A stretch of DNA of 64,000 nucleotides from Ascidia mentula (Eukaryota; Chordata; Ascidiacea; Phlebobranchia; Ascidiidae). The DNA is taken from the NCBI GenBank assembly GCA_947561715.1, contig OX387205.1, forward strand, positions 8,437,001 through 8,501,000, in the 5' to 3' direction. This document shows positions 1-32,500 of the stretch, one piece after another. The stretch's first letter is position 1, and the number at the start of each line of letters is the position of its first letter. The position numbers were made by a program, and so were the translations under genes. The notes beneath the pieces are model-generated. The model was given only the letters and a program-made list of their open reading frames with translations. It ran no database searches and was not told where the DNA came from.

Positions 1-1306
1 TTTGTGTGCAAAAAGTTTCATTTTTAGAGTTTTTATTTTGAAATCTTAAATTTTTATTGTTTTCATATATATATGTATGCATTTTACATTTTTCAAATCA
101 AACACTGTTGTGTCTCCAGTTGCCCGTCAAAATCCCTAAAAAAAAAACAATAAAATATTGTGTTGTTTTTAACATATCGGTAATTTTAGCGAAAATAAAA
201 GTACTACACTAACAAGAAACACCAAGAACACGTGCATTTCATTTCAGTGGATCACGTTCCTTTTTTAGAATTTACGTGCTCCGCAACACTGCACAAAAGC
301 TTAGCATACATACACCCTGAAGTTATAAAGGTAATGTATATTATGTGACTATTAAAACTTGTTTCAAATTTAATAATTGTGGCATTCAACGCATAGCGCA
401 AAAGATGACAACGCTGCGTACTTCTAAATGTATTTCAAGAGTTTCGTTGGCCGGGTTTGCAGGATTTGTCTTGACCTAATTGCACATGACTTTGCAAGTG
501 TCAATGTTAAGGTTACAAACTTCGCGGGCTCGCCCTTTTTTGAGAATAAAAATGATTTTGTGCGCTATTTTACCTGAAAATACGTTGCACCAGGATTGCA
601 GACTACAATGAAACCTCGAAGCCAAATTCTTAGAATTCAGAGAATTTTTTTCAAAAAAGGCCAAACTTCCTATGATTATGATGTAAAATCAAAAATCGAC
701 CTCATATATAGCAGAAATTACACACTTTTTTAAATCACAAAAATAGAGAGTTTCCACCGATGAGTAGGCCTACTGAAAGTAACACCGGAAATTAACAAGA
801 AATCACTTTCAATTTATCAACATACATTTCCGTACTATATATAAAAAGCCCAGAATAAATCAAAATTTCAACGGCCACAATTTTTTAAGGACCACACTGT
901 TTCAAAAAAGGCCAGATCAGCGAAAATGGGGCCAATCTTGGCAACCCTGCGCTGCGCTGCGTTGCAAGTCATAAAAAAAGATTATTATGACGTCACATTA
1001 AGGCACACGCTTGGTGCAATTTCTCCTTGGCGACATCACAGTTCAGTTCAATCATTGAACTTCAATGCCTACGTGATATGCTGCAACTATCATCATTTTG
1101 TTGGTTGTAGTTAATTGTGCTTGACTGCTTGTCGGTTAGTTTAATATAACACGCAACAGCTTGTTTGGCAGCAAATAGTGACAAGTTTGACTTTGCATGA
1201 AGAAACTGGTGAAAACATTAAGGTTAAATTTGTGGTGTTGATGCAAGTTAAAGTCATCTTTAATTTACAGATTTTTGTACATATTACTGTACACTGTTGA
1301 TTTGTA
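1..1306. other. Left-end non-coding flank of ABHD18
   Basis: I recognise no coding exon here. The stretch is AT-rich with short ORFs only. A TATA-like run lies near 835-847 and a CRE palindrome TGACGTCA near 988. An unpaired 3' splice site (pyrimidine-rich stretch ending in acag at about 1269) sits 37 bases before the ABHD18 start codon. It could accept either a 5'-UTR intron or a trans-spliced leader, as is common in ascidians; that is inference. Confidence 0.4.
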
Positions 1307-2861: not shown

Positions 2862-5235
2862 AGTGTGACTTATTGTTTGTTTAAGAATGGTGTTATTCAA
2901 AGGCCTATTTGCGTTATGCAACTCTTGTGATCTTTTTGTTGTGGTGCTGCAGAAAAATATTTCTATTAACTGTGTATTCAACGTGTAACTTTTCTTCATA
3001 AACGATTTTTTGAGACTGTGACTAAAGATCTCCCATTTAATTTATATGCCAGTAACAAACTGCATTGTGTTTGGGTCCCGGAACCAGGAGTGACACGAAT
3101 AGTTTCCAAAGAGAGTTAGCGTAAAATAAGGGTGATTTCAAAAATATAAACCGGTTTGATGCGCAGGCTGGAAAAGAATATCCTTTCATATTTGTAGAAT
3201 GCTCGTCCGGAGTTTATTCTGAGAAATTTAAGTTAACACTTCCCCAGTTCAACTCGAGGTCGCTACAGCGGATATTTAGCTGAATTGTATCATTACACTT
3301 TGCACAAACCTGGGTAATTCGTTATCAAACGACCTGCAGAAATTACTATTCCACGTTTTGGCAAAAAGTCTGGGAAACGATCCAGAGAAAATTTTCCGAT
3401 CCTTTTCGATAAAAAGAATGCTTATGTTTCGTTCCTTGAGCAATCACTTGCATTATAATTATTGCGTAAGTATAAATTGGAACTGGTCAACATATTGTTC
3501 ACCTGGTGGTGAGATGGAGCAACTCGGAGTGTCACTTCAACATATCGAACAGCATCATTCCTCTTGGCCGCATAAAACAGCTCAAGGATAGCCTACAATA
3601 AGCCGATTACAATTAAAGGACTTCATTTTCCTTTTTCGGCTTACCTTTTTGTTTGCTTTTGCAGTTAATTGCTACTTTAATCTTTATTTAATTGCGAAGA
3701 GAAACTGAGACAACAAACATAACAAATATTTAAATCACATTTGTATGTTTTTCTACTCGGCAAAATTCATTATCTAAAAAATCGCGCCTTTACGTATTGG
3801 TTGTTTATAATATCTTTGCTATAGAGTACCGTGCTTTTTAACTATTGTATCAATTTCAACAAAAATATGTTTGAGTTTTCAGATTTAACGATGTGCAAGT
3901 TAGTGAGATGTTTTCCTTCCAGTGGTAATAACATGCTTTTTATCAAGCCGTCTCAAGTATAGTTTGCATTGCATATTAGGTATAAAAATAGTTTTAGGCT
4001 GTATTACGGTAGGTTTTCTCAAAGCAAATTCATATGGCCTACCAACCGCACAACCAGTTAAAAAAAGATGAACGTTCGTCAGAGGGTAGGCGTACATCAA
4101 GGCGAGGAATCTAAATTTATGGTGTTACATACTGATGATGCTACAGCTGAGGCATACGTTCTCGTAGGCGTCATACCATTATAAAACGTTCAGAAGTAGT
4201 TTCAACACTACCCAGGCCCATTTTGCGTTAGACAAGCACACCGACAATCATTTGTAATCAGAATAATGTTTCTCTATCATCCAATATTCATAGAAAATAT
4301 GTTACCGCGTAGTATACTATGACATTACACTACAACAGTTTGAACTAGGAGAAAAAATGTACAGTTATGGAAAAGTGTGTAGATATAGCCTATCATGTGC
4401 AGAGTTTATTTTCAACAAACAGAGTTTACGACAGGACCAAAATAAAACGAATGTTCGTCTATGGCAGAAAATTTAATTTACCAAGAAATCAGCTAGGTTA
4501 GACCAGAGTTAATAAAATAGTAAAAGGTTGCAGTATGACCACTCATGTGTAGAGAGTTTGTTATGGTTCTGACGCAAGATCACATGACTAAAGCGTCAGC
4601 TGTTTCGTCCACACGTAAAATCAATATGGTAGCTCACCCGCCGTTTCAAATATTGTTGTTAATCTTATATAGCGGCAATATTTTTTCTATTTAAAAAAAT
4701 TGTTTGCAAAATTTAGCACTAATGTAAAAGCTAGAGAGAAATTTGTTGTTAAAATAATTAAACTTCACGAACAAGTTAATGTGGTGACTGCAAATACGCC
4801 AAACCTATTTTTGTAACGCCGTGTATGGCAACGGGCGTTGCTTTATGTGCGGTCGTTGCGCTGTTTTATGTTTCCTTTTGTGTGAGCCATCGTTCAGACT
4901 GAAGTCAGCCTTGTTGTTAACGGAGTACATGCCTGACAACACTGCTCCATTTGACTTTCTGATGTTTTTCTTGTCAAATTATATTCATCTTTTGACAAAT
5001 TATAACAATTTTCAGTATGCAAACCGCACCATTGCTAAAGTTAATCATGTTTATAACCCAATATGTACTAGATATCATTATCTTACACACAGATAATCAA
5101 CAATCGTTATTTATATGTGAGAGTGCATGCTTCTGTTAATTGTACAGATACACTCAAAAAGTTTAGGCTGAGTAGTAGTTAGGAAGACAGCATATCACCA
5201 GTGCAAGGCAAGACGAAGGGTAACCGAAGGACAGT
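2862..5235. other. Intergenic region between ABHD18 and the metallophosphoesterase gene
   Basis: No supported exon. It holds the presumed 3' UTR of ABHD18, AT-rich DNA and scattered short ORFs (for example 3358-3591 and 4821-5096) that show no domain and no splice partners. The promoter and 5' UTR of the next gene should lie in the last few hundred bases. Confidence 0.35.
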
Positions 5236-8200: not shown

Positions 8201-11200
8201 TAGTGACACAGTCATTTAAATTTCAATGGTATATAAGCTTGTTGTATCGCCGCCCACAATGACATGTGGAATTTTCGAAACCGCTATATTTATATTGAGC
8301 GTATAGGCAACGTCTAGTACCTGAAAGTATCGGCTTGTATTGATCAACGGTCATTTTGCATTATTCATTGCAAGCAAACTCTAGTCTCTACTAGGGTAAA
8401 ATCCCTTTGAGCTGAGCGTAGTTTCAATGAAACAATACTTTCGTATGCCCATGTATTAGGTGTGTACAATATTGTGCAACACGTGTTTTTGCAACCACGT
8501 TCTTGGCTTTAACTATCCCACAATCTACATCTCCAATAGTGCAGAACTGTCGATGTAAATGCCATCACTAGCAATTGGACTTGACAAAAAATATGACTTG
8601 GGCCAAACCCAAGTCCAATCTTGTTCAAACCCTAGCAACGAGTACAGCAAGCAAAACCACTTCTTGGCCAAGTGGTAAATCCCCGTCATCGAAAACTACT
8701 TCTCGCGACTATTGAACCCCGAGAGTCGTGTCTCGTCTTTTATGAGTCAGAGAGAGCAAACCATTGTGACTGAAATAGGTTCTCTTATGGGCGCAGTGCC
8801 AACAGGCGAACTTTGCAGGGTGAAAAACGCCAGCACCGCATTTACCCTTCAAGCGTACCTGGTGTATCCTGGTACGGCGTGTGTGTTTTAAGGTAACGCA
8901 CACTGTGGAATTCAGTCTGTGCGTGTTACCTACTTTGTGCAACTTGACCCACTGTAAACACGTGAAAGAACGTGAAAGGTTTTTGAATAGGACAAAATAC
9001 ACAGGGTTTTTGATTACATTGTTTCCATGTGCTCGGTGACTTGCGACACCGGTTTTGTACCAATGGACAATAACTTCATTACAACATAACTTATTATTTT
9101 TTTAAAATTCGGTTTAATTTAATGAAAATATTGATTTGTTTGCAAATGAGTAACTATCATACACTTTTCGGGTAGATGGAGAAATCGCAAATGCCTTGCG
9201 TGTAACTCGTTTTTAGAGGGTATCAAGTTAATAACATATACAGCTGTTAATGTTGTAAAAGCAATCCCACCCCTAAAAAAATTGTACGCTTTTGTAACCA
9301 AGCTTCATTACTTATATGAATTTGTTTAAAGCTAACTAACTATTTTACCGAAGTAAACATAATCAATTGAAACGTATTGCAAGGTTCGAAAACGTCTGAG
9401 CATTCTCCACTTCAACGACGTGTACGAAATTTCTGAGCGTAGCAAGGAACCAGTTGGAGGTGCGTCTCGATTTGCAACCGCTATCAACCAGCAAGCCGAG
9501 AGGATTATACGGGAAACTGGGGAACGCCCTCTCATAATATTCGGTGGAGATTGCCTTAACCCTTCCACGCTCAGTTGCGCCACCCAGGGAGAGCACATGA
9601 TTGAGGTTCTCAATTTGCTAAAGGTGAGTCTGAATGCTTGCTCGCAGACGTATTGTATTGCGTTTGTTGTATTTGACATTCGAGGTATTGTTATTCATGC
9701 TAACGTAAGAAGAGCGATTAATTATACTCGCTACACTGGTCGACGTTTGTTTGTCGCTTGCCGTGTAATGTTTCGTTACAAACATACAACCCATTAGGCC
9801 TTTCAAACACAATTCGGGCTGTTGGTTTGCAGATTGATTTGGCGGTGTTTGGCAACCACGAATTCGACTTCGGAGCGGAACACGCCACCAAGTGCATCAA
9901 GAAAATGGGATCGACGTGGTTGCTTAGCAACGTGATCGACCAGCTCACCGGGAAAAACTTAGCAGAAGGAAAAACTAAACATATGGTTGAGCACGCCGGA
10001 TTAAAAGTAAGCTAATGTGACAAAACAAGGCACTCGACCCATGACAGTTCCAAACCCGATAAAGAATACAATATAAGCTTGAATCTTTCCATTTAGATTG
10101 GCTTGCTTGGTTTGGTTGAGGAAGAATGGTTGGACACACTGGCAACCATGGATAAAGGTCACCTCGACTTTCAAGACTACGTTAAAAGAGGAAGAGAAAT
10201 TGCGGCCGAACTTAGAGTAAGTACAAGCTATGCTCTGTGATTTTGCGACCTCTAAAAATTACATGTTCATTATGCAGCAGTGTTTACTATTCATCTGTGT
10301 TGCTCATGTGACATCATCAGTCGGAATATGACAGAAAAATGTGAATAAATGTAGCTAATAATCCTTATTGATTCTCAGCTTTCCGAAATGTTATGATCAA
10401 TAGCAGATTTAAAGATGCCAATCTAGAACGTTGTTATCCGCAATAATCTTTAGTAGTGAAACTCATATTAGGTGCAAAAAACTATGATAATTTTCGTTTG
10501 GTATCATAAACTTATATTTTGACAAGCAAAGTGGAGCCAATAATATGACTTTGCTTATCTTAGGATTATTTTGACACGGGGCCTGACGGCACTATTGGTT
10601 GAGCTTTGCTTGGCCATGGTGTTCCCACCTTGTTTTCTCCGTAAGGTTGCACCTAGTTTGGTGCCCAACGGATGACGGTGTATAGTGGAAGTCATACAAA
10701 GTGGAAGTCTTTGCTTGGCCGTTTGGTCAGCAAAGTCGTCTGAAAGTCACACCAGCTGCACTGATGAGACCTTTAAGGTCGAAACAGTGGCCATCTGTCT
10801 GCAGCTTACACTATTACATTTTGATGTTATTGTTTTGTAGGAGGAAGGTGCAGATTTCGTAATAGCCCTCACTCATATGAGATGGCCGAATGACGAACGT
10901 CTAGCTCGTCTTGTCCCAGATATTGATCTCATATTGGGAGGTCATGATCATGACTACGGCGTCAAAGAAATTGACGGTAAATATCAATAATTGTACATTA
11001 AGTTACAAGCATAGGTTACCACATGAACTACTGGAAGATTGCTGATTTGTTACCAGCAATAGTATAGTTGATCTTATTAGATTTTTTGTGCCAACATGTG
11101 CGACAATTTGTACCTTTAAGATTTTATTTGCACAAGACACTGCTTATAAGCGAAATATATTTGCGTTCAATGGTTAATCGACTGACCTTAGCCTTCGTGA

Positions 11201-29535: not shown

Positions 29536-32500
29536 ATGAAAGGCCCCAATAAACAAGCATTATCCAATAAAGTACGTTTGGCGTCCCTTCATCAAAAGAA
29601 GGAAAATGCATTGAAGTCAAATCTGTTGATTAAAAACTCCCTTAAAAGCTTGGTAAGTAAAGTTTGTTGTGATAAAATGGACAAATTAAAATTATAGATG
29701 GTGAACTGCTTGATTATTTACATATGTTGCATACTGTAGTACTGTCATTTTAAGTCTAACATGTGTTAACTTGTAGGATCAAACAAAAAAATCTAATCAG
29801 CACATTAAATTTGATGATGAGAGCTCTGACGAGGAAGAAATTAATGAGGTTTCCAACACTCCTAATACTATTTATGACAAGGTACAGTATTAGACCACAT
29901 TGGAAAAATCAAATCCTCCGCACACTTTAGCGAAAATTTGCCGACAATCTGCACAATATTAATGAGCTGATGCAATAACATACAAAAAAAATGAACGATC
30001 GCCAAAACGAAGTTATGTGATGTATTAAAAACTTAGCTTGCATGTTGCAGAATGTGTTTTTTCTGTGATGTTTGCATAATAGGAGCATATATTTTTATGT
30101 GCAGTCTAATTTAAAGACAAAATCACATGGAGATGTATTGGGACTAAACAATGCTTCCAGTGATGATGATGAAATTCAAATAAAACCCCAATTTGAAGGA
30201 AAATCTGGAAAAAAACTTTTGGAGATACAGGCAAGGTAAAAAAGCTTTGTGTGCTGCAGTTTTAAGTATAAATATTAAACTAGTCTTAAACTGTGGTTGC
30301 AATTGTGTAAAATTGTTTTCCTTTTAACAGATCTGGAATAGATGCCAGATTCAAAATGGATGAAAGGTTTATTGAAAGTGATTCTGCAAATGAAGAAGAA
30401 AAAAATATTGCAGAAGAAAACAATGAACATTTAGATGGTAGGCTTAAAAAGTGTGTGATTTAATGCTTTAATGTTATATCAAAATGCATGTTTCTCCTCA
30501 TGGCAATACTTTGCTTTTGTAACATTTATATTAGTTTTTTCATTTTATCTGTAGAGTTAAAAAAGTAGATTGTGTTTAGAAAAAAAACGTAATTTGGCAA
30601 TCCTGCAACAAGTTGTTGGAACAGCGGCTACAGCTAAATCTTTAAAGCGCAGAGGAAAAACATTTCAAGACCCAGATGCAAAAAGATATGACCCAAATAA
30701 AGAGGACCATGTTAAACTTGAAGTTGCCCCTAGCAGGTTTCTCAAGAAACAAAAAAAAAACTTTTTTGTTTTAAGATTTATGTTGATTAAAATCAAATCA
30801 ATATTAGCTGGAAAGCTGCAGACAGGGTGTGTATACACACTGTTAAGACCTGTAAGGTCTTATCAGTGCAGCTGTTAAGTGGCACTGTGCTAGCTTTTAC
30901 ACTAGCTGGCACACTAGTCTACACTTTGTGGTACCTTTCGGTCAACATCTGCAGCTTTGCAATAACATGGCTTTTTTTGCACAAATATTTGCTGGGTTTG
31001 ACAGAAACGTTAAAAAAATTTTGGCACAAAACCTCAGTATGGTTTTAATATAGTTAATTTTTTTGAAACTAAAACATCTCTTAACAATATCCAGACCTCA
31101 AAAGTAAATTATTGCAGCGAAACTGTTGAAAAGAAAAAGAAAAAAAGAAAAAAGAAACATGATAAACCCGTTCCTGTTGATGCTACAAAGTTTTTTGAGG
31201 CAAGCACCACAGATCTAAAAAGTGCTTTTGGCAAACACTTAAAGAAAGAGGTATATGAGCATACGTATATATTGCTTTTAATGAATTGGAATTTTTAACC
31301 CTGTGACATAAAAAACTGAGGGAAATTTGGTAGTTCCATATTATTGTTGTTGACAGACTAATGATGGCAATAAAAAGGACAACGCTACCACTATTAACGA
31401 TGATGATGGTGGTGGAGAAACTCAAACCTTTTCATTTTTGAAAATGATGGGAAGAAAACCTGATGAAGACGATTCTTCTGATGAGGAGAGGTTTCCCTAC
31501 TTTAATGAAGGTGGGTAAAAGTTTAAGCGTGAGCAAATTTGCTCATAAATTGTGTAAAAGATTGACATTTGAATGTAAAAATTCCATAACTGCTTTAACT
31601 GAAACAATCTTGCTAGTTTTTCTTTACTTCAGTTATGCATTTACTTCTGTGGGAAGGGTTAGGGATTTTTTCCAAAAAATCTGTGATTGTTTTAGGATTA
31701 GTTAATCTCTTAACATTGTTACAGAGGTCCCGTAAAAACTTTTTCTGCAAAGCTACACTTAAGTTAATAATATTAAAACTTGGAAGCAAATTGCTCCTTT
31801 TCACTAACATAAATTACCAATAATAAATTTGCAGAACTTCCTCAAAGAAATGAAAAGTCAAAATTAGAATCTCAGTTTGGAAGACGAGTATTTAAGCATG
31901 ATAGCAGTGACAGTGAAATGGAAACAGAAGATTACCAAGTAAAAATTGGTGAGTTTTGGTTATATGTAAATAGCATGTTATATTGTTAAAAATATTATTT
32001 ACTAAACATAAAGAGTTTTCCTTAAGGCTTTGCTGCAAATAGATCGCTAGTTTTGTTTGGCTCTACAAAATGGTAATTTTAATATTTCCAACTATATTTG
32101 ACAAACTTTAGCAATCCTGAAATACTGTGAATTGTCCAGCACAATTTCGGTGTGTACGAGCACAACTTAGAATGGACAAATCATTGTGTCGAAAATAAAC
32201 CTGCCTCCTAGCATAAGACCAACAAACAAACATTATTAGTTGTTGTTTAATTGTTGTTCAAACAGTGATAAACTAAACTGTTACCACTTCTGAACTAAAA
32301 CCTCGTATTTTAATGTATAGAGAAAAAGGAAACTTCTAGAATCCCAACAACTTTGTTTCTAACTTCACGGAACGACCCTCGTGTGTTGGAAGGCCCGACC
32401 CTGTTTTGCTCCAACAAAAGTATGGATAAAATACGGGAGGAATGGCTGGAGTGCAAAGACATGCTAAAAGCGGTGATTTGCTTTGTTTTATGCTGTATTA

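Follow-up and report, generated by a model that had tools for sequence, protein, structure and literature searches.

Cervera and de la Pena (2020; PMC7229834) describe metazoan retrozymes from hosts that include cnidarians, molluscs and amphibians, and put forward Penelope-like elements (PLEs) as strong candidate movers of animal retrozymes; a second source names either LINEs or PLEs as the movers (PMC11722881). According to the open text of two reports (PMC7229834; PMC7761336), most invertebrate retrozyme hammerheads cleave as monomers, while the dimer is needed for good cleavage by amphibian hammerheads whose helix III is weak. For ascidians, the only report found in the open-licence literature concerns Didemnum, in which its open text gives nine type I hammerhead loci (PMC8704543). 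The insertion chemistry of PLEs has been studied in vitro with an anole element, which cuts and extends both target strands and begins reverse transcription internally, at two closely spaced sites within an AC-rich part of the RNA, the stretch between the two sites corresponding to an optional tail of 30–40 bp in genomic copies (PMC11167929). In the PLEs of a bdelloid rotifer, head-to-head inverted pLTRs are the most frequent arrangement, one of the pair bearing a 31-bp tail, and target-site duplications (TSDs) measure 8–10 bp (PMC3846280).

The window analysed here is the whole stretch of 64,000 nucleotides from Ascidia mentula. It contains a feature that we regard with high confidence as a solitary insertion of a metazoan non-LTR retrozyme, most likely moved by Penelope-like machinery (Table 1). 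The original prediction had placed a complete hammerhead on the sense strand of an intron in a metallophosphoesterase gene, 41 nt before the 3' splice site. Both the motif and its setting were borne out: the exons on either side of the intron join in frame to encode a Metallophos (calcineurin-like phosphoesterase) domain (Pfam PF00149, E 4.7e-9), and 41 nt lie between the predicted cut and the acceptor, the final intron base being 10840. The CUGANGA...GAAA...NUH core with three helices, open at helix I, is present in full, with the boxes, the helices of 7, 5 and 4 bp and the cleavage triplet in register, and the motif is confirmed as real. A DDX18-like gene neighbours the host gene; its closest named relative is from Phallusia mammillata (90% identity), and further named relatives are from Clavelina, a sturgeon record marked as an unverified contaminant, two Ciona species and Styela.

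Table 1. Features of the retrozyme insertion, its hammerhead and its host intron, with a second hammerhead, in window coordinates.
Feature	Position	Strand	Remarks
Host intron, 624 nt, GT...AG, metallophosphoesterase gene	10217-10840	+	Flanking exons join in frame
Target-site duplication, left copy, TTATATTTTGA	10512-10522	.	10/11 positions match 10814-10824
Inverted stub, ~25-nt element tail, outer end at site B	10524-10548	-	BLAST, end class B
Main retrozyme copy, unit position 35 round to ~12, end at site A	10548-10811	+	
Type I hammerhead, intact core	10754-10806	+	Predicted cleavage after C10799; sequence, covariance model, shuffles
Helix I (7 bp)	10754-10760 with 10800-10806		
CTGATGA box	10761-10767		
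Helix II (5 bp)	10768-10772 with 10776-10780		
GAA + A15.1	10781-10784		
Helix III (4 bp, counting A15.1-U16.1)	10784-10787 with 10795-10798		
C17	10799		
Target-site duplication, right copy, TTACATTTTGA	10814-10824	.	Exact 7-mer by script
Broken second hammerhead, sister family B	30815-30874	-	CTGATAA for CTGATGA, TTAA for GAAA

The hammerhead forms the 3' part of a repeat of about 285 nt, which was inserted shortly before the 3' splice site and is flanked by a target duplication of 11 bp with a single mismatch; an exact 7-mer, ATTTTGA, was found by script and the 11-bp extent was read off the sequence. When the window was compared by BLAST with a genomic unit from locus L001, positions 10520-10553 matched L001 1321-1354 (unit 47..14) on the minus strand at 91%, and positions 10548-10808 matched L001 1349-1609 at 90% identity, with an end of class A. 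The window copy thus repeats the anatomy of larger insertions in miniature: duplication, stub at site B, main copy at site A, duplication. Joining the flanks without the insertion leaves a 322-nt intron ending in the same TGTTATTGTTTTGTAG, so the intron is most likely older than the insertion. The second hammerhead of Table 1 keeps its helices and scores 60.5 bits with covariance model R1 and 72.5 bits with R2; of the two retrozyme ribozymes in the window, one is therefore intact and the other broken.

The relatives of this copy were sought across 196 Mb of genome. A 161-base query gave 47 matches, with 40 of 1750 first-look candidates scored, and the exact 49-mer of the common form (family A) occurs in 519 genomic copies against none for a reversed-pattern control. 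Hammerhead cores with at most two mismatches number 3598 in the genome, and a sister family (family B), which differs in its helix II loop and has a helix III loop of greater length, accounts for 518 exact cores. The unit is 285 nt long with a GC content of 46%, and with a longest stop-free stretch of 94 aa it encodes neither a reverse transcriptase (RT) nor a GIY-YIG endonuclease. Its hammerhead lies in a repeat within the 150–450 bp range of metazoan retrozymes that is both dispersed and tandem (285-bp period, 519 copies), target duplications longer than 4 bp occur among the 31 insertions analysed, and long terminal repeats are absent, no long flanking direct repeats having been found in 31 clusters when up to 1.3 kb of either flank was compared. 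The family of the window copy is new; its kind, the metazoan retrozyme, is known.

Several further observations concern the same set of sequences. In the array at L029, the unit length is divisible by three and, followed round the circle, one frame stays open over 94 codons, probably by chance. A third hammerhead family was seen at L034:243-295 and 5009-5061 on the minus strand, with CCAATAGG in helix II and with AGCGGCA or AGCTGTA opposite TGCTGC as helix I variants. Same-strand hammerhead pairs 4–5 kb apart were considered as terminal repeats of PLEs and rejected: in the three that were read (L032-L034), the flanks are themselves duplicated at 94–100% identity, no long reading frame is present, and the pairs look like duplicated DNA.

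The insertion footprint was read from 31 loci (L001-L031), onto each of which the genomic unit was mapped; most are best matches to the window copy, and the sample is not random. An exact run of at least 8 bases is shared between the two flanks in 19 of the 31 insertions, compared with 19 of 930 mispaired flank pairs; this count includes both L008 and L009:3627, which share flanks. The remaining 12 of 31 share no run of that length. The mean exact run is 8.9 bases, against 5.1 in mispaired flanks, and the longest is 16. The outer ends fall at two sites: (i) start site A, approximately 12–16 nt past the hammerhead cut within CTTACACAA, and (ii) start site B, approximately 30 nt beyond site A (about 43 nt past the cut), after TTTGCTT.

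Ends were scored in clusters of at least 120 bp, of which 35 were available and three were dropped (locus edge, duplicate flanks, family B). The resulting 32 clusters comprise 19 with two ends and 13 with one (10 A, 3 B). With the gapped script, every two-ended insertion (19/19) pairs one end at A with one at B, with no A+A and no B+B; an earlier ungapped script had returned 17 A+B, one A+A (L014) and one insertion with an end left open (L007). By arithmetic, drawing the ends independently at their observed frequencies would make only about half of the two-ended insertions A+B. No earlier description of such a rule for retrozymes was found in the parts of the open-licence literature available to us. 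All 35 clusters have an end past the cleavage site, in a sample biased by a locus query that spanned the cut and may have under-sampled copies ending there. A linear monomer ending at the cut was hence not the template of these clusters, and a circle or an uncut multimer may have been.

Orientation is equally regular. In the 17 clusters that contain both orientations, the order is always minus then plus, with the ribozyme ends outward. Among opposite-strand neighbours less than 1.2 kb apart, family A gives nine divergent pairs and one convergent pair in the 100 of 519 places listed, the sole convergent pair being two separate insertions. Family B gives nine divergent and no convergent pairs in the 100 of 518 places listed, where two spacings recur twice and probably mark duplicated DNA. 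All cores together give 11 divergent and no convergent pairs in the 100 of 3598 places listed, a list that overlaps that of family A.

Divergent inverted and tandem insertions, together with two start sites that set off a tail of 30–40 nt, are the marks of PLE insertion, and the retrozyme family has them; PLEs are most likely the elements that move it. The unit is inserted like a PLE, yet is not itself a PLE. In the mechanism proposed, the type I hammerhead would cut multimeric transcripts of tandem arrays into monomers, which would then be circularised. A PLE reverse transcriptase with a GIY-YIG endonuclease would make a staggered DNA break and begin cDNA from both ends, one DNA end priming on circular or uncut multimeric RNA at site A and the other at site B. 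The two cDNAs would meet, leaving arrays that are divergent and in some cases tandem, with a target duplication on either side. On this account the window copy would be a short product, with an inverted stub of about 25 nt at B and a nearly full unit at A.

A comparable footprint is left by one PLE of the same genome. A search for GIY-YIG domains, in which 150 of 382 candidates were scored and 121 passed, gave 17 divergent, no convergent and six same-strand neighbours within 6 kb among the 121 passing matches, and one GIY-YIG array runs (-,-,+,+,+) with a 2870-bp period. In this PLE, which has both RT and GIY-YIG domains (L057), the difference between the two outer ends is 39 nt, and inspection of the flanks (L058, L059) gives a 12-bp duplication. 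Two further GIY-YIG loci, L037 and L040, are divergent with both sides ending at the same place, so the tail is present in one of three PLE loci. The PLE tandem array at G000:C69:12189000-12195100 (L057-L059) lies within a tandem satellite, and its flanks repeat AAGCTTTATTATACAGTGG. Taken together, the A+B end rule, the divergent arrays and this PLE footprint turn the existing guess about PLEs into one that is specifically testable.

None of the PLE loci examined was shown to carry the family hammerhead as part of the PLE, or to have more than short matches in common with the retrozyme unit. A decayed hammerhead of the same kind was observed in L036 and L043 (945-995, minus strand), about 0.3 kb downstream of the PLE 3' motif. 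It was rejected as evidence of a PLE-borne ribozyme, as it scores 37 bits in these two loci but 10.5 in the similar L039; it may be an old unrelated retrozyme insertion or a hint of such a ribozyme. A half hammerhead, CTGANGA-stem-CGAAA, was also seen at PLE 3' ends (L057:565-600, L037, L038, L040); it has no obvious helix III or cut site and was not counted as evidence.

The same insertions might instead be the work of a LINE-type (non-LTR) reverse transcriptase, with the inversions arising by twin priming, which we consider improbable. Twin priming does yield inverted copies, duplications of the observed size would suit LINEs too, and LINEs are probably among the RVT_1 matches in this genome (150 scored, families not sorted). 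The usual end of a LINE is the 3' end of its RNA, whereas the retrozyme insertions have two distinct 3' start sites, one per end, as in published PLE behaviour. Inspection by eye of the insertion ends displayed picked out neither a poly-A nor a simple-repeat tail, and the sampled RVT_1 matches include no divergent pair within 6 kb, although with a single adjacent pair, convergent, they are an uninformative control. On contigs C15, C21, C49 and C51 of G000, the search placed RVT_1 matches within open frames that it gave as 3977 to 19197 aa long, lengths that look unlike those of ordinary genes.

Whether a lone intronic copy would cut was approached by thermodynamic folding. In the lone copy the predicted probability of helix III is 0.04–0.05 when the flank is 60 nt or shorter and 0.0 when it is longer, since the ACTG that opens the core pairs with CAGT. 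A double hammerhead is predicted for two copies in trans, where the gain is 12.9 kcal/mol, and also for a 391-nt transcript of two tandem units, in which the dimeric helices have probabilities of 0.90 and 0.87 (helix III) and of 0.35 and 0.86 (helix I). The earlier suggestion that the short helix III favours dimeric activity thus agrees with fold prediction. As such models ignore tertiary contacts, the lone copy may still cleave weakly, and its cleavage of the host intron is a possible but doubtful outcome. The monomer cleavage reported for most invertebrate retrozyme hammerheads speaks against a dimer-only rule here. In family B, L033 and L015 are predicted to fold as hammerheads both alone and as dimers, and L032 and L009 as neither; in family C, a hammerhead was predicted for neither of the two copies.

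These predictions bear on the proposal that the hammerhead serves its host gene, by cutting the intron 41 nt before the acceptor and so altering splicing or making a new 5' end. The core and helices are intact, the motif lies on the sense strand close to the acceptor, and a single copy can in principle cleave; the proposal is nonetheless decidedly improbable. The copy is one of thousands dispersed in the genome and can be recognised, with its target duplication, as an insertion; downstream of it the intron retains its original 3' splice region, and the helix III of the copy has a predicted probability of about 0.05 or less. A host role is unsupported. Of the original reading, the resemblance to retrozyme and Penelope-type hammerheads stands, and the gene-specific regulatory device gives way to a dispersed copy with thousands of relatives and a target duplication.

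Returning to a mobile retrozyme, a fuller proposal stands in our judgement at about evens. Retrozyme circles would template two-ended PLE reverse transcription that rolls from both sides, and each of the two DNA ends would be forced to a start site (A or B) different from that of the other. The family A hammerhead, with its palindromic helix III, would be a tandem sensor that cuts only in array transcripts, stays silent as a lone intron copy and so spares host genes. Tandem-only folding, if true, would help to explain how thousands of ribozymes are tolerated without cutting host transcripts.

The internal structure of the arrays was also compared. Same-strand neighbours less than 1.2 kb apart lie 284–286 bp from each other in family A, with one at 570 (13 pairs in the 100 of 519 places listed), and 291–294 bp in family B (five pairs in the 100 of 518 places listed). 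Thirteen complete units differ at 0–4 positions within an array and at 1–19 between loci, and each of the three inverted arms tested is closest to its own array. Such likeness would be expected if a single circle had been copied by rolling from both ends, but homogenisation at a later time could produce it too. It could also suggest that the arrays arose as DNA, through satellite amplification or unequal crossing-over with the hammerhead incidental, given that the 285-bp units are tandem and near-identical within an array and that some copies sit in duplicated DNA (L008 and L009, L032-L034). Satellite expansion predicts neither the flank runs nor the two shared end sites, which single copies and the arrays L029-L031 have alike, and we judge this origin very improbable.

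The strength of the motif itself rests on several comparisons. The window contains a single instance of CTGATGA-N9..20-GAAACAG, where 100 shuffles give a mean of 0.01, and positions 10754-10806 score 68 bits (E 2e-19) with a covariance model that lacks the family of the window copy; that model was built from six sister-family copies of the same genome and its E-values are rough. Helix covariation is not significant, the observed score being reached by 109 of 500 shuffles (12 distinct rows, 94% of cells paired, too little divergence). A covariance-model score had been proposed as a check, with a value below threshold as the refuting outcome, and taken literally that outcome occurred. In the Rfam scan of the window, no family reached its gathering score, which is a threshold of the library and not a structural feature. 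The best Rfam matches at 10754-10806 were Hammerhead_3 with 17.6 bits (cut-off 48.5) and RAGATH-1-hammerhead with 19.7 bits (cut-off 56.3); Hammerhead_1 has no row of its own, only the best one of overlapping clan matches being listed. Rfam alone would hence miss this hammerhead; we judge that the family evidence overrules the threshold failure. A chance match, in favour of which only these sub-threshold Rfam scores can be cited, was expected 0.01 times in shuffles and must contend with the family-excluding E-value and the 519 exact copies of the 49-mer, which already refute it; we judge it extremely improbable, and the original prediction had likewise held it very unlikely. A scan of IMG/VR gave no matches.

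Conserved intronic hammerheads of amniotes are single conserved copies. The window hammerhead is like them in its intronic location and unlike them in being part of a mobile repeat. It shares with the newt and axolotl satellite hammerheads, in the main text of PMC7229834, a palindromic helix III loop, tandem repeats and, for family A, a fold predicted for the dimer and not for the lone copy. Those hammerheads have a single base-paired helix III stem in the text available, unlike the 4-bp helix III counted here with A15.1-U16.1, for which the dimer is a prediction; the helix is also longer than in the minimal PLE hammerheads of the open text of PMC7761336.

The closest likeness is to the metazoan non-LTR retrozymes as the main text of PMC7229834 presents them: a type I hammerhead, repeats of 150–450 bp, tandem copies, a GC content below 50%, target duplications, no long flanking direct repeats and hundreds to thousands of copies. 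The family differs from them in its ascidian host, and in its divergent arrays and two start sites, of which no mention was found in that text; the words 'inverted', 'ascidian', 'tunicate' and 'Ciona' have no occurrences in it. In these last respects the family resembles PLEs that carry hammerheads and tails, as given in the available text of PMC11167929 and PMC3846280, with divergent and tandem insertions, target duplications, start sites 30–40 nt apart and, by eye, A and C near site A. It is unlike PLEs in having a unit of 285 nt with no stop-free stretch longer than 94 aa.
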